Source of the DNA: Ectocarpus siliculosus
Lineage: Eukaryota; Sar; Phaeophyceae; Ectocarpales; Ectocarpaceae
Direction of reading: 5' to 3'
NCBI GenBank assembly: GCA_000310025.1
Contig: FN649748.1
Coordinates: forward strand, 3,879,430-3,902,043
Length of the DNA stretch: 22,614 nucleotides
Shown in pieces: positions 2,489-22,580 of the stretch. Below the pieces are notes generated by a model that saw only the letters and a list, made by a program, of their open reading frames with translations, searched no databases and was not told the origin of the DNA. Made by a program: the position numbers and the translations under genes. The stretch's first letter is position 1. Every line of letters starts with the position of its first letter.

Positions 2489-3228
2489 GGGGGAAAAAAA
2501 TGTCCAAGATGTGGAACCTATATTGCTGTGTACGGCAATTCCTCCGACGATGATCACGGGTCTTTGCATACGAAAACTGTAAGCAATTAGCCTGGCACCT
2601 AGTTATGTGACCAATGCATGCAGCTTTTTTCGTTGACACGTGAGTGTTTTCTGGTGCACATGGGGAAGACGGACGTCCTCAACAGCAGCGGACACACGGA
2701 CTGTATGCGTGCGTTCCAGAACGGTCGCCAGACCTACCTGCAGCTCGAACGCTGTGTCGAACTCTGCAATCTTTCGCTCCGTAGTTCGTTGATAGAGACA
2801 CACTCCATACCTCCCACACAAAACAAATTAACCAAAGAGGACCGACGACCCACCGCCCTGGATCGCACTCGAGGACATGTTTCGCAATCAACCGGCTGAC
2901 ACTGAATCCCTCCGATCAATGAGTGAGGTTGGAAGAGATTAGACTATGCTCAATCCCTCACCGGAGCTCCCTGAAACTTTGGCGGGAGATAGCCCACTCT
3001 CGACCAAAGCGCACACAACGCCAGCGTGGCACCATAGCCCAAGCCAGCTTGAACTTAGGGCAAGGCTAAATGGTCCCTCGCCTAGCCACTCCCTCAGGGT
3101 CCCTGATGCCATGCCTGCTTTGGAAAGCTGCTGCCGAGCTGACATGCATCAGAGAATGCACTGCAGGGGGCGACGCACTCCGGATTACAGTTAGAGAGAA
3201 GGTGGGGTGAGGTTGGATACGTAGGTTG
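2489..3228. other. No supported gene
   Basis: Short overlapping frames only. No repeat, RNA gene or exon-like segment with paired splice sites was recognised here. Confidence 0.5.
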
Positions 3229-3428
3229 CATAAGATATCACACCCTCCGGACCGATTTTCGAAGCTCGATTTCTCGGCAAGAAAAATCATTGACGGTGCC
3301 AAAAATGGTGGGGTTGGAACCGCCTTGTTGAGAGCTTTCCGAAAACATAGCTTTTGATTTCGTCACCCTCTTCATCGTGGAGTAACCGAGCTGTGAATAT
3401 TGGTCCAGGGGGTGTGATATCTTACGCA
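3229..3428. mobile_element. Fold-back element family F, copy 3, the most complete
   Basis: The left arm begins GCATAAGATATCACACCC and the right arm ends with GGGTGTGATATCTTACGC, near-perfect inverted repeats. They extend inward through CCGGACCGATTTTCGAAGCTCG on the left and its diverged complement on the right, so the whole 200 bp could fold into one hairpin. The core contains GACGGTGCCAAAAATGGTGG and GGTTGGAACCGCC. There is no open frame for a transposase. The structure is that of a miniature inverted-repeat element; the mobilising transposase is unknown and no clear target duplication is visible. Confidence 0.75.
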
Positions 3429-3779
3429 TCCACCGGTAAGTATATTGAGGTTTACTCGTTGTGGCTGGGCTGGCTCTTTTTTCCATATCTTTCAGTGTCG
3501 CATGTGCATGATACATTTTTCCCATTCCCCCTTTGAAGTTCACCCCTCCGCACGAAACCGGAACCTCTACAGGGGAGAGGGTGATTGCGTCCCACGTGAT
3601 ATTTCTGATTTGGGGAGCAAGTGCGGGGGTGGACTTGGTTCCGTTGGTAGACTATATGCGTGGTGTGGATAAGGGTAGATACCTTAGAAGGTGGGGCTAC
3701 GAGTTTAGTCCATGTCTTGGAGGAATATATTTGATTTCTAGAAAGAAGGTGTACCCCCTTTTCGGGGTAGTTGGCTTGT
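3429..3779. other. No supported gene
   Basis: An 82-codon plus-strand frame spans 3533-3781, but it has no recognisable motif and runs into the next repeat. Nothing else is supported. Confidence 0.45.
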
Positions 3780-9804: not shown

Positions 9805-10088
9805 ATGCGCACAAAGATAGCCCGCAAAGATGGTGGGGGTAAACATCAGCGCCGAGAGGCCCTCCCTGAGGTCCGAGCGGGGCTGGTCCTGGTGAAGAGC
9901 AAAGATGTCGGTCGATCTCGACGTCCTCGCAGAACCTGGGTGCTCCCAGTGCTGCGCGTGTTGGCCTTGGCCGCGTCAATGCTCTGCCTCACTCCCACGG
10001 GTGGCATGGTCACAGGGATGTCGAAGATGGATGCTTGGAGCGCAGGTTCCGGGCCCGAGCAGCAGCACGAGGATCGTCGGCCGACCGG
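9805..10088 (+). CDS. UGT-like gene, candidate exon 1 with signal or anchor segment
   Basis: The first ATG after an in-frame stop (TGA at 9796) opens a frame of 94 codons plus two bases. A basic stretch (RSRRPRRTW) precedes a hydrophobic run (VLPVLRVLALAASMLCL, about residues 47-63), as expected of a signal peptide or anchor. The donor GG|GTGCGT leaves phase 2, which the acceptor at 11740 fits exactly. Against it, the region before the hydrophobic run is unusually long and non-conserved, so the true start could differ. Confidence 0.45.
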
Positions 10089-13000
10089 GTGCGTAGCGGG
10101 TGCAGCAGCGTAGGTTTTTTGCCCCGCGCGTGGTTGAATCCGTTTTTCTCGTCCTGGCTGTAACGCACTGACTTTTTTACGACACACATTCCTTTGTTTG
10201 GCGGGTAGCCGAACAGGACCGTCGATAGATCGTATCGGTGGCCCTCCCACGCGGCATCACGGGTGTCTCTTGCGTCAGGCTTTCATGCTAAAATGAATGC
10301 ACGGTGCTGTGTGTTTTTTTGCCGCGTCCGCCGAAACGAGAAGGTCGATCTATTTTGTTACCATACCGTCGCTGGGCACACCGCGCTGCTTTTTTGGTCC
10401 ACCAAACTCCGGAATGCATGTACAAGTACACACCCAGCAGGGCACCCGAGCAGAAACATGTGCAAGTCGTTGCTTGCTGTTGTTACGTTTTAGACGCACG
10501 TCTGTCTCAAGCTCTAGTCGGCGAAATGGTGCGGGCATTTCGGTCATCCGCGGCAGTATCAGATTCTGTAGGCAGCAAGCAAGAAGAAGATTTGATTCCC
10601 AAGGAACCTTCCAGGTTTGGAAGTTTCGCTAGACGATGACGGTTATGTACCGATTCGAGCGGACCACTGCTCCCAGCAAAATGCAGGTACACGGCTGTAC
10701 ACGGCTGTACACGGCTGCTGGGTGTGTGCGGTTGTGGAGTGGGTCGTAGACAAAGAACTACGAGATAAGTCGTCGCTTACTTACTGGCACAGCACGTTTC
10801 TGGACGAAATAAAGCATGACGACGAGTGTTAAGTGTTGCGCTCGTTGTCGTCGCGTCTTGTCAAAGGCACATATCACAGCAGTCTACAGTACATACTTGC
10901 AGCCCATGTTGTCTCTCCATCGTTCGTTGGTTGAAAATTGAGAACTGACTGAGGCCACTTTCCGGGCAGTGGAAGCTGGTAGAAGACCAAGCAGCGGCAG
11001 TAGCACGGGGCTCATGACTTGTTTGAAGAAATCGGGTTCTTACGTTTCGGCGATTTCTGCAAATCCTCCCTTATGGTATATCGAAGCCGCCGCTACTGCT
11101 GCAATGCTCTTGCAACTTGGTCTCTTTGAGATGGTGGGGATAACCGGAGCATAACATAACGACAAGCTTGGACAAGCCGAAATGCTTCGTGTTTAAACAT
11201 TTCTTCTAAATTGTGTCTACTCATGAGTATGCATATATACCATTGCTGTGACAAACGGGTTTGACTCTCTTATCTTCGTACTCCTGTCTCTGATCTCGCC
11301 ACTGCTGTAACGGTGTTGTCAACAAATGGATCGGAGAAAGCGTGAAAGGCACAGCAGTAGAGCGTAAGCTGGCACGTGTTGCACATATGCGGTCGTTCGT
11401 TGGTTGCGTCGCACCTATCAATAGCACGGGCCGTACGAGCACCAGGCCCAGCCATCTAGGTATGTAGATGCCTTTGGTCCACATCGATTCACGGCATCTA
11501 AACAACTATGTTACCGGTTCGACATCTGGATGGGTTTTGTTGGTTCGCATCGATTCACCGCATCTAAACAAAATGTTAATCGTGTGCGACATTTAAATGG
11601 CTTTGGTTCACAGAGATTCACGGCATCTAAACAACTGCGGAGTATGTATCAGTTTCGACATCTACATGCCTTTGGCTCACACCGAAGCATCTTAACAGCT
11701 ATGTTTACGTTTGCTTCGTTTCCGACGGTATTATGTGTAGCGTCTGGGGGCAGCAGCAGGAGCACGTGGTCTTCGTCGGGGTCCCTGAGGAAACCGCGGT
11801 GCTTCCGCTCAAGGCGCTGGCGCAAGAGATGATTGGGAGAGGCTACCGTGCCAGCCTCGCTCTGCCCCACGGATTCCAGGCCTGGTGAGTGCATGAAGGG
11901 GGTGGAGGGCACGATGATGCGATGGTGGCTTTGAGGGTAGGCATTCCGTTGGTGAGACAGCGTGTCTTTGGTCAAAGAGTTTGCAAGAGTATCGTCATAC
12001 CGCTGTGTAGCAAAACCTACGCAAATCGAGCGTCGGTTGTCCGATCTCACTCTGTCCTTCTGTGTAGCACATCTACACAAGATGATCAAGGTGTGTCCAG
12101 TGCCCCCATTCCAACCATATCCTTCCATGCCATCACTCGCCTCTATTTTAGACCCCCTTGCTATTTCTGTGTTGTGCTCTGCCTTTCTTCCTTGCTCTCT
12201 CTCCCCCTCTGCCTCTCTATCGCTGGCCTGTCTCCGCCGTCCCCCACGTAATTTTGCCGTTTCACATATCACCGACGCTGTTGTTCCGCTTCAACCAGGG
12301 TGGAAGACATCCCCGGTCTTTCCTTCCTCTCCCTCAAGCCCACCGGCGGGGCCCCCAACTCCAACGCCACCACACACAGCCACGGGACCCCCGCAACAAC
12401 TCCGCAACACCACCTAGCAGCAGCGGCGGGAGGAGCAACGGCGATTACAGACGCTGAGGAGCAGCAGCAGCAGCAGCATGCCCCGTCTCCGTATGTCGCC
12501 CACCCTTGCCCCGCGCGCCCCCCGCCCACCAACGGGAGAAGGAGGCCTTGTTCGGGGGAGGGGCTCGGGGACGCTTGGGGGGGGGGGGTCGGCGGCGGGT
12601 GGGGCGCCGGGCTCGGTATCTGGAGGGGGGTGAGGGGGAGCTTGGTGGGGGCGAGGGACTTTTTCGGGCACCTGAAGACGTACCTCGGGTTTTACCTCCG
12701 GGAGGAGGCGGTGATGTACGCCCCTTTGTTAGAGGTGAGGTGCTGGGTGTGACGGTGTTCTGCATGCACATGAAGTTTTCCCGTACACAGCCGTAACGGT
12801 TTGTGCGTGCGTACCAGTGCACCTGTATAGAGTAGTCGTCCGTAGTTTTCAGTCCGGTTTATGTGACCTCAGGCCGGTTTATGTGACCTCGGTGTGGTCG
12901 ACCATAGTTTGCGGCCCGTGTGTTCGGGCAAGGCAAATGGTTCCAAGGTTCCAGATCTGAATCGATGTCGCTGGGTACAGAGAAGTCCAGAACATGAAAA

Positions 13001-13921
13001 TCCTGATGCCTTCATTTGACGTTAGATTTTCACTTAGATAGTGACCGACTTCTGAAGTTAAACGTAACGCTACAAGCATTGCGGGCTGGTTGCGAAGTCG
13101 TGGCTGAAAGAAGTGTTCTACTGCATCATAGTGGTTATCGCACGGGGTTGGCGTTTGTGGCTTGGAGTTTAAAAGAGACGGTAGAAGGGATTGCGAAGTG
13201 TTTCTGCATTCATTCCCGCATACCATGTGACAGGAGTACGATCAGACGATACTCGCATCCGCATTAGAGCGACACCGCGGCAAAAGTGTAGACACGCAGT
13301 GAATGCTGCTATCGGGCACTGGCTAAAATGGTGCTCCCGGCTACCCATCGAGAGCTGTTGATGGGATGATGGGGGACTCTCACTGCTAATTCCAAGCACG
13401 TGTGTGCCACATCGGATATGAGCAGAAAGCCTCGTTCCCGACCCAGGTTCTCCCCTCGGTTTTATTTCAAGTGATTCGAATAAGCTACACGGGTAGTTAC
13501 CGGCCAAACGGGGCGGTAAGCAACAACGGCGGTGATTTTCCCGCTACACCCGGGGTAATACTCTGCGGTGCCCCATTTCACACAGACGCGTGGACACACA
13601 CATACAGAGATGACACGTTTTCTGGACGCGATAGTAAAACTTGACCCTGCTTCAATTATATTTCTTGTGTGCGGACAGGCTCTTCGGCGGGACCCTCCCG
13701 CCCTCGTCATTGCCGACCGGAGAGCATCGGCGGCGTTCCGAGCGTGCTCGAGGCTAGGCCTGCGCTGCGTCGTGAACAGCGCGGGGCTGCTGGGCGACCT
13801 CGATCGGCCGCCAAACTCTATCCCCGCTCCCTACACTGGTGAGGGCGATGACACCGCGGTTGAAGTCGTTGTGTTTTCACCAGACAACATTGTAATGTTG
13901 TAGTTATGTGAAGACAGCATT

Positions 13922-13966
<45 letters not shown>

Positions 13967-16900
13967 CACCATTGTTAGAATTGTTAGATTAATGTCACCA
14001 TCATCACGATATTGTAATAACTCAATCTCGTATTGTTTTCACTGCGGATGTGAGTCGGGAGGGGCAACGTGCAGGAGTTTTTCGAAGTGTTATCTATACC
14101 CTGTTTAGGTACACAGGTGCCGTTGACCACGCAAGACATCCGCGTCAGTCGGACCGGTACGGGTATTATATGGAAGAGACCGGAACAGTTTTTATTTTGT
14201 GAAGACAACAAATAGCAACGAGAAGCTCTCGACGAGGTGGTTGTCGTTCCACCTTCAGCATTTTCGGCACGGTCACTGCTGCTGTTGCTGCAGATTGTAA
14301 TCGAGCTTTGATGGTCGGTGTAGGGGGGGTAGTATCTCGCATATTCATCCTACGGTGCTCACCCTGACAAATGGTCGTGCGAACACAGCTGGAGCTCGGC
14401 GTCGTACTGTGCACGATTGATCTCCCTCCCGCTTCGTTCCATGCTAATCTTGTTTTGTGCCTGTGCTATCCCCTTTTCGTGGTCTTCAGGTTTCCCGTTG
14501 GAGGGTCAGACGATAGGACAGCGGGTGCACAGCAGCCTGTTTCGCCTGGTGCTCGCTTTGTCGAGGATGCAGGCAAGTCTTGCTGCCGCACCACCGGCGG
14601 TGTACATATCGTTTCTGCTGATGAGTGGCGTTGGGTGCTTCAAGTGAACATTGAATGTAACTCGGGTGAAGTTGTAGCCGCTGCTTGTGAATCAATTTGT
14701 CAAGCACTACAATTGTAGTAAGGCGGACACCCGTACCATGGCGGGTACCCTACCCTGCACTGCTTTTTTTTAACCAGCTTGATTTCTCCCTATCACGCGG
14801 TTTTTGCGGGCCGGTTCACCGGCGCTATGAGGGGACTGTAGGGAGTGTTGTAGACGCATCAACCGTTCACACGGGGTCATACAAGACAGAGAGTGACGTT
14901 CCGACAACGTGCATGGTGACTTTGGTCAACGCTGATGCTGTCGAATTGACGAGTGCTTCTCATCGGATCTGCATGGTATCGCCGTGCTTGCTTGCTTTTA
15001 TTGCTTCTTCTCTTATCCTTTTTTTGGTCTCTTGCTTTTTTCTTTTTGTCCTTTTTTTTTTTTTCACCACGATAGGCGGCTCGCGAGGCTGACCACGACT
15101 TAGCCTCGTGGGCGAACGACCGGCCAGTTTTAGGCTCCGAAGAGGGCCCGCATCATCACCACCATCAAGATCATCACCACCACCATCAGCAAGACCCAAG
15201 GTCGTCCACCGTGATGGCTCTGGGCAACAGCTGCTTTGGCAGCTTGGAGTATCCTCGAGAGCTTCCCGCGAGAGTGCATATGGTGAGCATTGTACAAGAC
15301 ATGATTGTTGTTGGTGGTGGTGGCGGTGGTTCAAAGTAGAAAAAAAAATACTGGCAACAAAAGCAAAGGAATTCCGAGCTTACACTCCGCGTGTGTGACC
15401 CGGGCTCGTGAGTCAAAACACATGTTTCCGGAAGGTGTATGGGTCGTTGGTACGAAACGAAGAGGCTGTACACAGTACAGACGCATGAAGAACATTGTTC
15501 TTTTTGGTTCGTTCAGGTTCGCTGAGCTGTTCGAGCTTGAGAAACGTCACTGATGGCAGCTGCTAGGCGATTCACACCAACACATGATATGCTTTCATCT
15601 TGCGTCACGCCTTGATAACACTACCACTATACCCCACTCCGGAGGCGTGCCTTGCAACTTAAACAAAAGTATATCCACTTACTGAAAAATACTTCACCAC
15701 GTCCCTTTCGACTGAGGTTATATCTCGAACGGGTAGTCTTTCTGTGAGGTTACGTTTACTTTCTAAGAAGTATGTTAACGTAAATAACGGCTCCATGACC
15801 GCTGTACCGTCCAGGTGGGTCCGTTATGGATGTCTTCATGGACGGTTGACGACCAAAACCATTTCAACGGCGGACATCGGAGCGAGGGTCACTTCGCGAG
15901 TGGCCATCACGGTAACACCGGGGCCGGTTCTCCTGCCAAAAGCAAGAAGAGCAAGGATGACGACGGCGGTGCCAAAGGAGGTGGTGGCGCCGCTACCGCG
16001 CGGAAAGGTTTTGCTAGAGATACGGCGGCGATGGAGGGCGGGGACGGGACGGCGAGAGGGAACGAGGCGCTGGAGGACGTTTGGTCCTGGTTAGAGCCGG
16101 TGAGCGTGTTTGTTGTTGGAGTGGCACGTTGGGAGAGTTGTGGCCGGTCGACAAGGGTTTCATGTACGTAGGCATGTTGACGTGCATGCGTCTACATATG
16201 TATGTGCAGGTGGATTTATTGTTAGGATCGACCGCGATAACCGTCTGACCGATGAAAATACGCCAGTGTGTGTGTGCGTGTGTTTTGTAACGATATCGTC
16301 GTCCGTGGTGTCTGGTCAATCTCTCGTGAGATTGCTTGCTGGTGCCGCTGCTGGGAACCCCACCCGGGTCGCGGCGCTACGGGGAACCTGCGCTTGCTAC
16401 AGCAGCGTTGGCTGTAGCTGCTTGACCCTGCAACCTTATTTTTGCAATGGCGGCCATGTCCGACTCCGTTCCTAGATTCGCATACTCGGTCGAATGCTTG
16501 TTTACTAAAGCCGCTTGGACTGCTGTTGTTGATATTTTTGGTGTCGACTAGTCTACCAATTTTCTCGGTCTGTTTGTCTACAACCCTCGCCGGTGGCGTC
16601 TTCGAGCTGAAATATAGAATCATACTCTAGGGTAGTCGCGCGTACTCACATATGCTGGAGGGGCTTTAGGTATTTGGGCGCTCGAGCACACATGCAATGG
16701 GCCTTAATGTTGACGCTGCCATCGGCCCCTTTTGTTTTGTTTTTTTCCTCGTCTTCAAGAATGTGATCGCTCGGGCTCTAAAACGACGGAATATTTGTAG
16801 AGTTCGCCTTGGGCGTCTACTGCATGTGGCGTAAGATATCACACCCCCTGGACCGGTTTTCATCGCTCGAATACTCGGCTGCAAAACCAGAATGACGGTG

Positions 16901-19900
16901 CCGAATGGCGGCCTTGGGGAGCCGCCTCGTCGAGAGGTTTCCGTCGGTGATGTTGATGCCGATTCGCCTCTGTCTTGTGTCTGTTGGCGTTGTTGATGCC
17001 GTTTCACCTCTGTCTTGTTGCCTGTTGATGATGCCGTTTCGCCTAACCGCAGTACCTTCAGCATTCATGGCGCGACCTCGTGCGTTGCTCATGTTTTTGT
17101 CCGCTGCCTTGTTGAATGCTTGGGTGTATCCAGGAGGGCGTGGGCGAAGATGACGCTGCCCCCGTGGTGGTTGTGCAGCTCGGCTACGGGGGAGGGTGGG
17201 CGTGGGGCGTGTCGCCGGATGCCGCAGTGGGAGGCAGCGAAGGGGAAGATGGAAGTGGCGCCCGGCCGTCTTGGAAGGCTTTTCGTGAAGAGGTGGGAGG
17301 GGGGGCGTACTCGTGTTTGGCATGAGATCATTGACCACACGTGCTCGAGAGGACAGGGGGGGACGTTTTGCTCGTTTGCGGTATTCGCTTGGAATGCAGC
17401 TGGCGAAATCTTTTACATGTTCGTACCGATGTGTCTCTCTCTCGGCCGTCTTGTTTGGCTTTGGAAGGACCAAGAGTCCCAGTGCACCAACGGGAGCTCC
17501 GTTGCGCAAAGAAGTGACGAAGCCAACACGAAACACACATTCGTGTGCTAAATATGTGGAGATGGAGATGATCTTTAGAACGGGTCCCGTCTCCCCAATA
17601 CGTATCTTGTCTTTCGAGGGCGATTAACTCCTTCTGTTTGCGTTGGCGCGACGAAAGATTTCTGATCTTGGTTTCACAGTCGTCTTTCTTGAAACGTTCT
17701 CTCTCTTTCTCTTCCTCCCTCTCTATCTCTTCTCTCTCTCCCCCCCCCCCTCTCTCTCTCTGTGTGTCTCTCGCTCGTGCGTGATTCGCTGGTTGGCTGC
17801 TGTATCTACTTCACGCCATTCTACTACCACCAGACGGCAACGCAGCTATCGGCGGTGGGATGCCGAACGCTCTGGCTGGACCACCGCCCATACCCTGACC
17901 ACCGTAGTCAGCCCAGCGAGGATCAAGACGAAACCGCCGCTGATGAACCCAAGAACGGTTCCGGAGACCATTCCGCGGAACGTTCCGCCGTAGGCCGGAG
18001 TTCTTTGTGGAAGCGATATACGGAAGGATCGGAACCACCAAAGACTACGCCGTTGCCTTCGAGTGCTGGCGGAATGGAGGAAGACGCCGAGCTGTTGGCG
18101 GCCGGCGGCGGTGATAGAAGGACGGGCCCCCCGCTTGGTGGATGGGAGTTGCTGGACGGGAGGCAATCTTTATTGTTTTTTGACGCGGAGGGGATGGTGG
18201 CCTCCTCCGAGTCCGAGTGGCTGTTGAGGTGAGCCTAATGGACTCCTTCGTTCAACGGCTCTTCCTGTCTGTTGTTTCCTTTCATGTTGAGTATGTTTAT
18301 TTTATTAAACCTACGAAGACCTGCTGTTTGTAACGACTTCTGTTTTGTTGTTTTGTCGCTACCGTCCCGGCCTGTCGCATACACCACGCAGCAAGAAGCT
18401 CTCAAACCCGAACGTACGGAATGGTGTCAACAGTCGAACCCTTGCCTCTTTTTTGCCTTCGCCGCTTTGCCAATCAGCCTTGCGTCCATCGACAAAAACA
18501 TGAGTGATACGCCGCGGCTATCAGCCACAGTAGTGGTCCCTGTGTAAGGCCTCATTCAACATGTCCAGTGGCCCTTTTAAAGGCCGGTGAAATCGCGTGA
18601 CACAGATGGAACACTCAAGTTGTTTAAGGCCTCATTAATATAAGGCCAGTCGCCCTGAAAAAGGCTGGTGAAATCGCGTGACACAGATGGAATATTCAAG
18701 TTGACTCACACTCTGAGTAGCAGTAGGTGCCCGGTATTCGGCCAGCGAAATTCCTTGGCACTATTGACCCTTATACCGGGACCACTACCCTGTGCAAGGG
18801 AGATACAATATGATCTCTACATACAGCAGTAGTCGATATGTAAATAATACCATAGGATAATGTTGCTACGCATAGCAACGACAGTTAAGGGCAGGAAAGG
18901 AAGAGAGACTGTTGGAAACATGAATGAGGAAGGAAGAGGTGGCATCGACGAGAGCAATTTTTTCGACCCAGCTGATCGTCCACGACACAAGCAAGCGCCC
19001 GAGAGTACCCGCAGATAAGAAAATATCCGTGAAAACAGACACGCTCAAAAAAAGTTCCAGAAATAATATATATGGTGGCTGGGTGAGAGTTTTTTTTTTC
19101 TATTCGCAATTTCGGGGACGCCATATAGAACTACACTCATCCCTCGGTTGAAGACACCATTTTGAGGACACTCCCCCGATTAAGGACAGCTTTTTTTTCA
19201 CAGGCATGGTGGCTCGCAGAACGTATGTACAACATTAGACGGGGTATCGACCTTAAGGACACTTCCCTGGCTTATGGACATCTGTTTAAACGAAAATCCA
19301 TGTGTGTCCTAAGTCCTTACCCGAGGGACGACCGTACACTCCAAGACTCAAAGTAGTGAAGGCAAGGGGACGATGGAAGCAGCCACAATATGCAAAGGGA
19401 ACCGAAACGAAGGCGAGTAGTTCGCTAAAACGTAGAAGCCTCCGCAGACTGCCGTTTCTGTCTTTAGTCCGGAGAGTGCCTTAGCACTGTCCCCTCACGG
19501 GGGTCGCAGATCATGGCCTTTTGAAACACTGTCTGTTTTTTTTTCAGCCGCACTGAGACTGAGGTCTTTCCATTGTTCGGCCGGTTTTGCGCGGTCCATG
19601 GTATCAAACACACGCACAGAGACACACACGGTATCCAGTTTGCTTTCGAGGGAAACATACAGATACAGGTATCTTCTGCCCCCTTTCGGTATGTATGGGG
19701 GGGGTGGCATGACCGATGCATACTCGACGCTGAAAACAACCCTCCCTAGGAAGGGATAGGGGATAGAATTTCGAGAGAGTGCGGTCTTGATTATAATAGT
19801 GATACCATTTACTTAAGTATTTATTTTTGTTGTATGTTTTTTTTGTTCTTTTTCCTTGCCCTCGCGTACCGAGTCGGGAGCGGTGGGCTCTCTGTAGTTG

Positions 19901-22580
19901 TCTCGTGCTGATTCATTGACCTCATTTGTCGGAACTATTTTTATTCGCGGCGCCTCCGACTCTTCGTGTCCCGTGCCAACAGCGATCAATACTTGGGTCC
20001 ATTGTTATTGTGAAGCTTACTGCCAACTGGTTCTCTGCCCTGTCAGGATTACGAAAGTCGCAATTGTATTTTGGCGTTTGCATCAGTGAGAGAGAGAGAA
20101 CCAATCGCCCTCTTCAGGGATGTGTCCCTTTCCAAAGGCCGTCGCCATTAATTGTCCCATTGTTTGTTATGCAGCGTGTTTTGCTTTCGTCTCGTCATAA
20201 CATCTCATGTGAGCGTGTGAGTTCTTTCCATTTGAGATTCAGGGTCATGTCTCACCGGCTTGTGAATGGTCATATTTTAGTACCAGACGCCAATGATTTT
20301 CTGTTTCTCTTACATTTTTAGTTACAGCGTTTCCCACCGGGTTGCTACTGACTGCCTTCATGACGGACGGCATGTTCGCTCTGTTGCATTCGTATTTACA
20401 GCTCATGTTTGTGTGTATGATGGTCTTCATCACATACGGCAATGCTTCCTTTGTTTTGTCTCAACATAGCACAATGAGTCCATCTCTATGGTTTTGTGTA
20501 TTTTTTCTTTCTTTACTGCAGAATCATGTCCCACCGGCTGGTGACGGTTTTGGTGACGGATGGCGACCTCCGCTCTCTCCAGACGGCCCTGTGGCATGGG
20601 AAACCTTCCGTGGTGCTACCGACGTCACCAGACCAGGTCAGGCACGAGGCAGACATAGGCCTGAATGTGCTTGGTACCTATGCACGTGTATCAGCGTCTC
20701 ACGGGGCCCCTCTTCGTTGTATTGCTTTCAGTGTGGCCCTATGGTAGTGCGCTAGACACGAGAAATAGTTGGGATGGGCTCTTCGCCTTGGTTTGACTGT
20801 GATGTCTGTAGAGGCCGAGACAGGGCCACCGGACAAAAGGGGGTTCTGTACGATGGGTACTCCGACATAGCGGTCCCCCCTAAATAGTGTGAAGCGCCGA
20901 TACGAGGGCACCAAGCAGCAAGATTGTTTGACCGATTCCATTCAGTTCAGTTGGAATACGCCGCTGTCGAAGAAACATCCCACAATAACGGTGAGTAATG
21001 GTTGGTTTGTCCACAATTGAAGGGCATACATTGCCACCGTCTTGCGCCATTCAGTATATAGCGGCGGTCCCCTCACTAGCGGCATTGAATGCGTTTGACA
21101 CCACAATAGATACCTCTGTATCGGGGGAGTACCCGCTGTATACCGGCGCCTGTGCTTTTGGGCGTCTGCCTAAGATGTTGCTGGATTTCAGCAGGTTGCT
21201 GCTCTGGTGCAGCTCGAAAAATTGCGGTCCGATAGGGCACCCTTTGTCTGCACGTTGCACATAAGCATACCTTCCCTGCATTCTCTCTCTCACCTCTGAT
21301 CCGGAGGATCTTCGGAAGAAAGATCCTTGTTTGACACCCCCACTTCCCGCGTAACGTGCTTACCTCCCTCTAATTTTTTTCAACCAACTTTCGGCAGGAT
21401 ATTCCCATGCCACCATGCGTGTATACCTACCCCTTGTGTTTGACGTACCTGCTCACCGCGTAACGGCCGTCCCTGCCTTCTCTTTCGTGCCATCGCCGGA
21501 CGCGTGTGTTTGGCGCCGCGGGACAGAGGGAGGCGGCCGCCCGTTTGGCGCACAGCGGGGCAGGAGTGACTTGCCCTCCACCTTGCAACGCCACCAGCCT
21601 CACGGCCGCCGTCGTCGACGCACATGGCGCCGACATGCGGCGGGGGGCCCTCAGGTCTAGCGCGGCTCTTCACGAGGCGGGCGGGGTCGGTCGTGCGGGA
21701 GATTTGGTGAGATAGAAGTAGATCACGGCGGTTCTTTTTTTATTGTTGGTGTTGAGCTCTTTTCCGACGTGTTGGAGAATGTCTTCTTGTTGGCTGCTAA
21801 CGTGTAATTGGCAGTGTTGGCCTGTGAAGACGAAGGGCTTGCTTGCTATTGGTGGATTCGGGGGCTCCGGTGTATGTATGGGGGGCCCACTTGTTGCTTG
21901 TTGTGGTGTAGGGGGAACCTTTGATTTGGTTTTGGGGGCCCGCCTTTTGTTTGTTGCGGTATACAAGTAGAGGGGAGAGCCTTCGTGTTTGGGTTAGGGG
22001 GCCCGGTTTGTTTTGGTGTCAATGCACGGCGTAATTACGGCCAACGCAGTTTGCTCCAGCCTTCACATACTCCCTACAACTCGTGATATGTATGTGGAGG
22101 CTGATGATCCCGCGCTTGCTGCCAAACGCTGTTGTTTGTCCGCTTCCCTGGCCTGACCGCTGTCGCCTTGTTAAGCTGGAAAACGAGCTCCGGACCCACC
22201 TGGCTGCGACCGCGCGGCGCCTGGGCTGTCCTCACGGAGACCCTTCCCTTTGGTGGGGGGTCGATGACGATCGTGATGGTGATGGTGATGGTGATGGTGA
22301 TGTGCCCTCCTGGTGCTACCGCCGCCGCCGCCGTGAAGAGGAAGAAGAAGACCCCAGCGAAGACGACTGGTTCTCGTGGGAGCTGGGGGCGGAAGAGAGG
22401 TTCCCGCCCTCGCAAGGTTACGTTTCGGAAGGCTTGTCGTGGTTCCCGGACGACCCCGAGTGGGTCTGGAGAGAGATGTCCTGGCTTCAGAGGCACCTCG
22501 TTGACGTGTACGCCGTGTACGGAGCCCTCGTGATGGGCGTCGGGCTGCTCATGAAGCTCACGTGGAACCTTGTCTGGTGA
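9805..22580 (+). CDS. Divergent membrane-anchored UDP-glycosyltransferase-like protein, about 12 exons
   Basis: Exons: 9805-10088, 11741-11884, 12299-12734, 13679-13838, 14490-14572, 15076-15282, 15815-16099, 17134-17292, about 17834-18228, 20522-20636, 21527-21706, 22176-22580. They join in phase to about 950 residues, against 450-550 for usual GT1 (UGT) proteins. Family order is clear: HVVFVGVPEETAVLP (103-117), LVIAD and CVVNS, AGLLGDLDRPPNSIPAPYTG, FGSLEYPRELPARVHMVGPL, APVVVVQLGYGG, VTDGDLRSLQTALWHGKP, SPDQ, GAGVTCPPPCNATSLTAAV, and a C-terminal membrane helix. GT1 enzymes move sugar from a UDP-sugar to small acceptors, and the membrane-anchored ones usually sit in the ER. Here three key residues differ: Ala114 stands at the catalytic His, Asp731 at the His of THGG and Thr739 at the nearby Glu. 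Excess length comes from low-complexity inserts. Least sure are exon 1, the start of exon 9 and the last residues. Activity is uncertain. Confidence 0.85.
10688..10717. repeat. Three tandem copies of TACACGGCTG
   Basis: The 10-bp unit repeats exactly three times, within intron 1 of the UGT-like gene. Confidence 0.9.
11462..11725. repeat. Minisatellite, about four units of 61-69 bp
   Basis: Each unit begins ATGCCTTTGG or a variant (starts near 11469, 11530, 11597, 11666) and contains CACATCGATTCACGGCATCT followed by AAACAA and TTCGACATCT. The units differ by small insertions and substitutions, and the last one is truncated. The array runs to within about 15 bp of the acceptor of exon 2. Apparent reading frames through it are by-products of the repeat. 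Confidence 0.8.
11741..11884 (+). CDS. UGT-like gene exon 2, N-terminal Rossmann strand
   Basis: After ATGTGTAG the exon completes the split Gly and reads GQQQEHVVFVGVPEETAVLP, then the helix LKALAQEMIGRGY and strand RASLALPHGFQAW. In active UGTs the stretch PEETAVLP corresponds to P-x-x-G-H-V-x-P with the catalytic His; here that position is Ala114. The donor is TG|GTGAGT, phase 2. Confidence 0.85.
12299..12734 (+). CDS. UGT-like gene exon 3 with long low-complexity insert
   Basis: After TTCAACCAG the first base completes Trp143 and the frame reads VEDIPGLSFLSLKPTGG, matching the family's W-V-E-x-x-G-L-x-F segment. About 85 residues rich in Thr, Pro, Gln (CAG x5) and Gly follow, then the family's helix (GARDFFGHLKTYLGFYLREE) and MYAPLLE. 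The donor is GAG|GTGAGG, phase 0. An earlier GTGAGG near 12629 is possible but would lose the conserved helix. Confidence 0.8.
12852..12891. repeat. Two tandem copies of a 20-bp unit
   Basis: CCGGTTTATGTGACCTC repeats twice with a 20-bp period, in intron 3 of the UGT-like gene. Confidence 0.85.
13679..13838 (+). CDS. UGT-like gene exon 4
   Basis: After GCGGACAG it encodes ALRRDPPALVIADRRASAAF, then ACSRLGLRCVVNS, then AGLLGDLDRPPNSIPAPYT and one base of Gly. This is the classic UGT segment in which a D-x-V-I-A-D strand leads to a helix, a V-V-N strand and the proline-rich acceptor loop. The donor is CTG|GTGAGG, phase 1. Confidence 0.88.
13922..13964. repeat. (AAC)n microsatellite
   Basis: About 14 AAC units follow GTGAAGACAGCATT. 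That lead-in resembles the GTGAAGAC junction before the tails of family S, so this may be the tail of another, unrecognised copy. It lies in intron 4 of the UGT-like gene. Confidence 0.9.
14125..14220 (+). repeat. CAA-tailed interspersed repeat family S, copy 3
   Basis: It opens GACCACGCAAGACATCCGCG, continues TCAGTCGGACCGG and GAGACCGGAACAGTTTTT, then TTTTGTGAAGACAACAAATA. It is closest to copy 1 at its 5' half and to copy 2 at its tail junction. It sits directly against a half copy of family F in intron 4. Confidence 0.62.
14224..14346. mobile_element. Half copy of fold-back element family F (copy 4, inverted)
   Basis: In this orientation it shows the core AGCTCTCGACGAGGTGG, then ATTTTCGGCACGGTCA, and one arm (AATCGAGCTTTGATGGTCGG then GGGGGGTAGTATCTCGCAT). 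This is the reverse complement of the layout at 16829. The second arm is missing; the family S repeat lies where it would be expected. Confidence 0.6.
14490..14572 (+). CDS. UGT-like gene exon 5
   Basis: After GGTCTTCAG two bases complete Gly342 and the frame reads FPLEGQTIGQRVHSSLFR, then LVLALSRMQ. This is the short amphipathic segment after the acceptor loop in UGTs. It ends ATGCAG and the following bases are GCAAGT, the consensus of a GC-type donor. A GT donor with the right phase is not seen, and reading on would stop at 14645. Confidence 0.75.
15076..15282 (+). CDS. UGT-like gene exon 6 with His clusters and the interdomain motif
   Basis: After ACGATAG the 69 codons read AAREADHDLASW, then two runs of five His separated by Gln-Asp (residues 395-399 and 402-406), then ALGNSCFGSLEYPRELPARV and HM. 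The FGSLEYPR block is the conserved strand before the interdomain linker of UGTs. The donor is ATG|GTGAGC, phase 0. Confidence 0.88.
15815..16099 (+). CDS. UGT-like gene exon 7, interdomain linker with charged insert
   Basis: After CCGTCCAG it continues the family motif as VGPLWMSSW. About 70 residues follow that are rich in Gly, His, Lys, Asp and Ala (SKKSKDDDGG, AKGGGGAATARKG), ending EALEDVWSWLEP. The corresponding linker in typical UGTs is short, so this is an insertion and probably disordered. The donor is CCG|GTGAGC, phase 0. Confidence 0.85.
16829..16945. mobile_element. Half copy of fold-back element family F (copy 5)
   Basis: It opens GCGTAAGATATCACACCCCC and TGGACCGGTTTTCATCGCTCG, and continues GACGGTGCCGAATGGCGGCC and GCCGCCTCGTCGAGAGG. 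The second arm is absent; a minisatellite starts at once after the core. Confidence 0.65.
16952..17045. repeat. Minisatellite of about three units, 32-40 bp
   Basis: Units beginning GTTGATGCCG start at 16952 and 16992, with a partial third at 17024 carrying an extra GAT. CCTCTGTCTTGTTGCC is the other conserved part. It lies in intron 7 of the UGT-like gene, beside the family F half copy. Confidence 0.75.
17134..17292 (+). CDS. UGT-like gene exon 8, start of the C-terminal domain
   Basis: After GTATCCAG the frame reads EGVGEDDAAPVVVVQLGYGG, the family's V-V-Y-V-S-x-G-S strand and glycine loop with Gly-Tyr-Gly-Gly in place of Gly-Ser. A Gly/Glu-rich stretch and RPSWKAFREE follow. The donor used here is GAG|GTGGGA (phase 0), weaker than the others in this gene; the frame would otherwise stop at 17323-17325. 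Confidence 0.68.
17697..17762. repeat. Pyrimidine tract, (CT)n with a C run
   Basis: About 65 bp consist almost wholly of C and T and include ten or more consecutive C. It lies in intron 8, 70-150 bp before the candidate acceptors of exon 9. Confidence 0.9.
17834..18228 (+). CDS. UGT-like gene exon 9 (start uncertain)
   Basis: The secure part is SSLWKRYTEGSEPP (the family's V-x-W-K strand) through a Gly/Ala-rich stretch to GWELLDGRQSLLFFDAEGMV and SESEWLL, ending AG|GTGAGC in phase 2. Phase-0 acceptors in frame exist at 17833, 17845 and 17911, so 26 residues near the start are in doubt. The opposite strand is open and hydrophobic (17846-18166), a mirror of the acidic codons here. The usual W-x-P-Q sequence before the THGG region is not recognisable. 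Confidence 0.7.
18546..18703. repeat. Tandem duplication with an 80-bp period
   Basis: Copies start at 18546 and 18626 with AAGGCCTCATT. Both contain GGTGAAATCGCGTGACACAG and CAAGTTG, with about 10 differences between them. It lies in intron 9. Confidence 0.9.
19134..19334. mobile_element. TA-flanked miniature inverted-repeat element
   Basis: The left end CACTCATCCCTCGGTTGAAG and the complement of the right end CGGTCGTCCCTCGGGTAAGG agree at about two thirds of positions. Both ends are flanked directly by TA. TA target duplications and a CCTCGG-type end are typical of Tc1/mariner-pogo derivatives. No transposase frame is present in the 201 bp. It lies in intron 9. Confidence 0.55.
20522..20636 (+). 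CDS. UGT-like gene exon 10, nucleotide-sugar motif
   Basis: After TTTACTGCAG one base completes Arg718 and the frame reads IMSHRLVTVLVTDGD, LRSLQTALWHGKPSVVLP and TSPDQ. This is the UGT donor signature, in which V-T-H-G-G and S-x-Q-E-A-L normally bind UDP. Here Asp731 replaces His and Thr739 replaces Glu, while Gly744, Pro746 and the closing Asp755-Gln756 are kept. The donor is CAG|GTCAGG, phase 0. Confidence 0.9.
21527..21706 (+). CDS. UGT-like gene exon 11
   Basis: After GCGGGACAG it reads REAAARLAHSGAGVTC, so the junction makes D-Q-R-E-A-A-A-R, as in the family. PPPCNATSLTAAVV, then ADMRRGALRSSAALHEAGGV and GRAGDL follow, the two C-terminal helices of the UGT fold. The donor is TTG|GTGAGA, phase 0. 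Confidence 0.9.
22176..22580 (+). CDS. UGT-like gene exon 12 with C-terminal membrane anchor
   Basis: After CTTGTTAAG the frame reads LENELRTHLAATARRLG, an acidic insert with an Asp-Gly repeat (from GATGGT repeats near 22270-22303) and an Arg/Glu run, then ERFPPSQGYVSEGLSWFPDD. It closes with a hydrophobic helix (VDVYAVYGALVMGVGLLMKL) and TWNLVW. An alternative acceptor at 22049 would add 42 unconserved residues. The stop TGA overlaps CTG|GTGAGA, which could itself be a donor, so a further exon beyond the window is possible. Confidence 0.82.
   Translation: MENELRTHLAATARRLGCPHGDPSLWWGVDDDRDGDGDGDGDVPSWCYRRRRREEEEEDPSEDDWFSWELGAEERFPPSQGYVSEGLSWFPDDPEWVWREMSWLQRHLVDVYAVYGALVMGVGLLMKLTWNLVW

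Follow-up and report, generated by a model that had tools for sequence, protein, structure and literature searches.

The gene at positions 9805-22580 of the window (the whole 22,614-nucleotide stretch of Ectocarpus siliculosus DNA that we analysed) is, on the data of one genome, a good candidate for a UGT pseudoenzyme. With moderate confidence we favour the reading that its predicted product is a retained, membrane-anchored pseudo-glycosyltransferase of GT1/UGT type. This reading is supported by a frame that stays open over all the exons, with usable splice sites, and by the concentration of changes in the active-site columns. The first-pass annotation had proposed a pseudoenzyme that is retained, or else an enzyme working by a different mechanism or with a different donor, and this interpretation is, overall, partly supported.

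Gene structure and family assignment

We re-assembled the twelve exons from the sequence (Table 1). They join to 2853 nt, that is 950 codons and one stop, with no internal stop among the 950 codons and every exon junction in phase, in agreement with the earlier description of twelve exons joining without frameshift. Ten of the introns are of the GT-AG type and one, after position 14572 (14572-14573), is GC-AG; its donor, CAG/GCAAGT, is otherwise good and matches the consensus at 8 of 9 positions. The donors of the 11 introns used score 6-8 of 9; of all 1538 GT sites in the window, 51 reach 7 of 9 or more. The GC content of the model is 0.68, 0.54 and 0.71 at the first, second and third codon positions, the last value standing against 0.46-0.53 in the introns. 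A hydrophobic stretch lies near each end of the protein, which suggests that the product of this gene is an endomembrane protein.

The exons and the frame of the span first annotated as 9805-22580 stand, but 22580 is not secure as the 3' end of the gene. We observed that the stop TGA overlaps CTG/GTGAGA (cut after 22576), which matches the splice-donor consensus at 7 of 9 positions, within the range of the donors in use, and that the genome consists of N from the base after the last one of the window (22614), for 9,857 bases, to the end of the piece examined (L003:45-9901). This run of N may be a gap or sequence that was withheld. Exon 12 may therefore not be the last exon, and further 3' exons are possibly hidden.

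A repeat about 50-100 nt long is also dispersed over the window, in copies that are about 75-85% alike (2299-2359, 3225-3285 and, in intron 7, 16826-16886, with an inverted partner at 3333-3431). Tandem repeats occur in intron 1 (11468-11636; 66 nt, 2.6 copies) and in intron 9 (18541-18703; 81 nt, 2 copies).

Table 1. Exons and hydrophobic segments of the gene model, in window coordinates
Feature	Position	Strand	Residues	Content and basis
Exon 1	9805..10088	+	1-95	N-terminal region; assigned by frame; start codon predicted
Hydrophobic, signal-anchor-like stretch in exon 1	9931-10014	+	43-70	Kyte-Doolittle maximum 1.93 over 19 aa
Exon 2	11741..11884	+	95-143	First GT1 N-terminal strand-loop-helix; ORF match without gene model, E=1.3e-4
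Exon 3	12299..12734	+	143-288	Remainder of the N-domain start and long low-complexity insert; assigned by frame
Exon 4	13679..13838	+	289-342	'PPALVIADRRAS'; carries Asp301 at 13715-13717
Exon 5	14490..14572	+	342-369	GC-AG intron next; assigned by frame
Exon 6	15076..15282	+	370-438	'...FGSLEYPRELPARVHM', end of the N-domain; His/Gln-rich insert; weak profile match
Exon 7	15815..16099	+	439-533	'VGPLW' domain linker, then low-complexity insert
Exon 8	17134..17292	+	534-586	Likely first C-domain strand 'PVVVVQLGYGG'; assigned by eye
Exon 9	17834..18228	+	587-718	C-domain stretch and low-complexity insert; assigned by eye
Exon 10	20522..20636	+	718-756	Donor-binding signature 'VTDGDLRSLQTALWHGKPSVVLPTSPDQ'; ORF match without gene model, E=0.0025
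Exon 11	21527..21706	+	757-816	Last GT1 helices 'REAAARLAHSGAGV...EAGGVGRAGDL'; ORF match without gene model, E=6.9e-6
Exon 12	22176..22580	+	817-950	Acidic linker and C-terminal hydrophobic segment
C-terminal hydrophobic segment in exon 12	22494-22562	+	923-945	Kyte-Doolittle maximum 1.91; no tail beyond the segment in the model

Comparison of the C-terminal domain with the PDB gave a match to CalG2 (E=3.5e-5). With plasmid GT1 genes, the best three of seven records (two from Nostoc and one from Streptomyces) matched at E=6e-6 to 5e-5; six of these records, H6 being left out, make up the plasmid set used below. A profile built from six named bacterial GT1s scored residues 726-824 at 55.7 bits, and its match to the N-terminal part of the spliced protein is weak (7.6 bits). 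Judged by these similarities, the C-terminal domain is GT1-like beyond chance. We then ran a six-frame scan on 1129 ORFs of at least 30 aa (shorter exons escape it), drawn from four further pieces of DNA as well as from the window, with a profile built from the six plasmid genes and 39 of 79 bacterial loci. Three ORFs of the window fell within HMMER's inclusion threshold, and these are exons 2, 10 and 11. Since the scan finds them without the gene model, it gives independent support to the model. The rest of the N-domain was assigned by likeness, by eye and by comparison with the C22 gene, a UGT-like gene of the same genome. The GT1/UGT fold claimed by the first-pass annotation is upheld by the CalG2 match, the profile score and the exon 2 ORF, which covers the Rossmann-type start of the N-terminal acceptor domain.

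Curated Pfam models applied to the whole protein gave 18.1 bits for PF06722 (cut-off 31.7) and 14.7 bits for PF00201 (cut-off 19.5). An exon-wise search of the whole genome (189 Mb, 492 contigs) for both families, with E up to 10, gave no match at the window for either. The gene is therefore highly diverged, a state which is compatible with relaxed constraint. In the same genome, the light-harvesting family PF00504 gave 87 matches, with arrays on C92, C232, C488 and C16, many of them with identical scores, as expected of a photosynthetic eukaryote; genome size, GC content and the style of the introns might point to a brown alga.

Residues of the active site

In GT1 enzymes the catalytic His acts as a base, a loop of the C-domain cradles the UDP diphosphate and a Glu contacts the UDP ribose. 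In a gap-free alignment, Ala114 (GCG, 11796-11798) stands at the position of the catalytic His; the window protein reads PEETAVLP where its relatives mostly have GH, two residues and Pro. Asp731 (GAT, 20559-20561) takes the place of the THGG His and Thr739 (ACG, 20583-20585) that of the ribose-contacting Glu. All three replacements, which had been noticed in the first reading of this DNA, are thus confirmed at their codons. Two conserved Gly are changed as well, to Thr113 and Asp733 (20565-20567), so that the donor loop is TDGD instead of THGG at 730-733 (VTDGDLRSLQTAL versus TH[AG]G...EAL or similar in the relatives). Asp301, which presumably stands at the place of the catalytic-dyad Asp, is kept, and so is the pair Asp755-Gln756 (20631-20636).

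The comparison set consisted of 85 bacterial relatives, namely the six plasmid genes and 79 of the best 80 of at least 568 relatives, one locus being left out as it had no ORF with the pattern. The pattern used to choose the 79 loci requires the His and Gly of the loop and accepts, where the Glu stands, either Glu or Asp and nothing else. In this set, drawn from the best 80 of at least 568, the catalytic His and the Gly before it are each kept in 82 of the 84 sequences with a letter there, the loop His and Gly in all 85 (79 picked by the pattern that contains them) and the ribose Glu in 84 of 85 (79 picked by the pattern that allows Glu or Asp). This selection leaves the catalytic His and its Gly as the two residues whose counts do not depend on the pattern. 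Five of the six active-site columns (113, 114, 730, 731, 733 and 739) are changed in the window protein, versus 5 of the 21 other conserved columns, which means that 16 of these 21 are kept. For this clustering among 27 conserved columns the Fisher test gives p=0.015, with a grouping made post hoc and columns that are not independent. The change of 'LGS' to 'LGY' and the missing 'PQ' had also been considered as evidence; they were dropped since the C22 gene departs at the same places (LGR and LPH).

Earlier, much weight had been put on the catalytic His alone. This was too strong: human UGT1A4 (Pro) and UGT2B10 (Leu) reportedly lack this His and are yet active, forming N-glucuronides. The replaced donor-site residues are a stronger argument than the lost catalytic His.

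We looked at the other UGT-like loci of this genome, keeping in mind that genome searches may overlook UGT members, as the family searches overlooked the window gene itself. The C22 gene (L090/L001, partly modelled) reads YGHAMP, SHCGMG and QEAL, and thus retains the two His, the two Gly and the Glu. A gene on C17 (YGHAKP, THCGMG, YECA) also keeps the three key residues. Two fragments, L091 (C17:5640201) and L092 (C3:2730303), which we take to be of the sterol-glucosyltransferase type, read HHGGSGTT, with the loop His and without the Glu. Altogether, the loop His is present in 4 of the 4 loci read, the Glu in 2 of 4 and the catalytic His in both loci with a read N-terminus. A loss of these residues general to the UGTs of this genome was considered and rejected, because C22 keeps them all, as does the C17 gene, and the sterol-type fragments keep the loop His.

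No close copy of the window gene was found in its own genome: the whole-protein search returned 12 matches, all of them its own exons, and the C-domain search found two of its exons again, along with weak matches on C2 and C100. The C2 match had no UGT motif on reading, and neither had, by eye, a weak PF06722 match on C4 (L093). A C-domain scan of viral_contigs gave 29 pattern matches, none of them a relative. Around the donor loop, C22 and the window gene are identical at 15 of 41 positions (36.6% over 41 aa), a distance too great for C22 to be of use for dN/dS.

Origin of the replacements and possible function

The residues could have changed under weak constraint in a recently relaxed or dying gene whose visible lesions are yet to come. 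The low family scores, the genome family searches that missed the locus, the long low-complexity inserts and the lack of a close copy in the genome are consistent with this. On the other side, the model has no lesion in any of its 950 codons or 22 splice sites, and most of the other conserved columns are kept. We also applied a neutral model in which 3.5% of random substitutions create stops and 44 splice-site bases can be hit in addition; it assumes that the splice model is right and misses any lesion hidden by a chosen intron. Under this model, the probability that an unconstrained copy is still intact drops to 5% at about 0.021 substitutions per site without indels, and at 0.009 substitutions per site with one indel per ten substitutions. 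The replacements at positions 114, 731 and 739 cannot be reached with fewer than 3, 1 and 2 base changes, respectively; for six or more changes to fall within these nine sites at a divergence of 0.021, the probability is about 6e-9. Since so many changes are implausible before the frame breaks, the exchanges date from a time when the frame was still maintained, or from before any constraint was lost; this bears on the past of the gene and is no sign of current selection. Neutral decay is unlikely to be the source of the three replacements, in line with the earlier claim that simple decay is not the cause, and at least six base changes in three key codons are too many for a short neutral drift. 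A gene that began to decay only recently seems to us rather unlikely.

The protein could also be a working enzyme whose mechanism or donor has changed, which we consider unlikely; it would use Asp301 or another base, or none for an N- or S-nucleophile, and its TDGD loop would bind another donor. The kept Asp301 and Asp755-Gln756 agree with this proposal, as do the two human enzymes that reportedly act although they lack the catalytic His. Furthermore, the Glu is not universal: an Asp replaces it in L006 and the sterol-type fragments of this genome read HHGGSGTT. Against it, both the base and the residues of the diphosphate loop are lost, acids are placed at the diphosphate site, and the loop His and Gly occur in all 85 bacterial relatives (79 pattern-picked, from the best 80 of at least 568). 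A literature search at the level of titles and beginnings of abstracts found no GT1 enzyme lacking all three residues. A special form of this proposal takes Asp731-Gly-Asp733 for a DxD-like metal site bridging the nucleotide diphosphate, with Asp301 as the base, which would make the protein a metal-dependent GT1 enzyme. GT-A glycosyltransferases, which are unrelated, bind their metal through a DxD signature, so such an enzyme, if real, would have re-invented the GT-A solution inside the GT-B fold; we regard it as highly improbable. The gene model itself may mislead, either because other exons restore the normal motifs or because two genes are fused in it. The insecure 3' end would fit this, and so would a look-alike of exon 10 in intron 9: positions 20245-20265 resemble the start of exon 10 (20522-20544) with an alignment score of 17, the best of 60 shuffles reaching 16. 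This copy has, by eye, no open frame through the motif and is a marginal case, either a relic of exon duplication or chance. In the six-frame scan of ORFs of at least 30 aa, which shorter exons would escape, no second exon with a normal motif was found; the three exons named above were the only window ORFs within the inclusion threshold, and two further ones (E=3.1 and 5.3) lie on the opposite strand and outside the motif. In addition, the introns flanking exon 10 sit 1 and 3 bases from modelled C22 introns, the first differing in phase. An artefact of the model is, in our opinion, quite improbable.

For the retained pseudo-glycosyltransferase that we prefer, Asp731 and Asp733 would put two acids where the UDP diphosphate normally sits, Thr739 would remove the ribose contact and Ala114 the base. 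With these acids and the lost contact, ordinary UDP-sugar binding should fail, and the protein would then be kept for a non-catalytic role. By analogy with known systems, the likeliest role may be at the membrane, where the protein would pair with a working UGT or an enzyme of glycan synthesis, as a hetero-oligomer, an anchor or an inhibitor; our second choice would be a lipophilic ligand held in the N-domain. Against a pseudoenzyme, the kept Asp301 and Asp-Gln pair are as in an enzyme, and this leaves some doubt.

If the gene is kept across sister species, it would be a clean natural UGT pseudoenzyme encoded as a separate gene, and would allow the role of a UGT scaffold without chemistry (partner control, anchoring, ligand holding) to be asked in algae. 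Should the protein prove to be active, the set of residues regarded as required by GT1 enzymes would have to be revised. Our literature search found no GT1 pseudoenzyme in algae at the level of titles, and no algal UGT function at that of titles and beginnings of abstracts; GT1 as a whole word had no match in a paper on brown algal matrix genes (PMC11468063).

Comparison with known systems

The window protein resembles the UDP-glycosyltransferases (CAZy GT1, PF00201) with a C-terminal membrane anchor in its ordered N- and C-domain stretches, the 'VGPL' linker, the PSPG-like donor loop, the DQ end, the closing helices and the C-terminal hydrophobic segment. Unlike them, it has the catalytic His, the loop His and Gly and the ribose Glu replaced, scores below the family cut-off and carries long low-complexity inserts. 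Its best structural and plasmid matches, in the C-domain, are to the bacterial macrolide/enediyne-type GT1s (PF06722; CalG2, oleandomycin glycosyltransferase), whereas it is eukaryotic, predicted to be membrane-anchored, devoid of the active-site residues and below the cut-off of that family too. The C22 gene presents similar segments in the same order (FGFEYP...TGPL versus FGSLEYP...VGPL in the window, then ADQ and the closing helices), has introns near the donor loop 1 and 3 bases apart from those of the window gene, and shows by eye a hydrophobic stretch downstream, outside its gene model. In contrast to the window protein, it keeps the His of GHAMP, the His of SHCG and the Glu.

Human UGT1A_i2 is a splice form without the membrane end, and not a separate gene with replaced residues. 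It is a UGT-type protein without substantial activity, which hetero-oligomerises with active UGTs and suppresses them (PMC5075577); the inactivity of the window protein is predicted. Unlike the window protein, UGT1A_i2 keeps a potential UDP-glucuronic acid site (PMC5075577). In zebrafish, every Ugt5 protein retains the catalytic His (PMC2819257), and the passages considered in PMC8781437 do not state the residue of UGT2B10. Some plant homologues of glycosyltransferases serve as anchors or helpers of a working enzyme; they belong to other families and offer an analogy only: GAUT5, GAUT6 and GAUT7 target GAUT1 to the Golgi (PMC7533613), and IRX9 functions without its supposed catalytic residues (PMC4132061).
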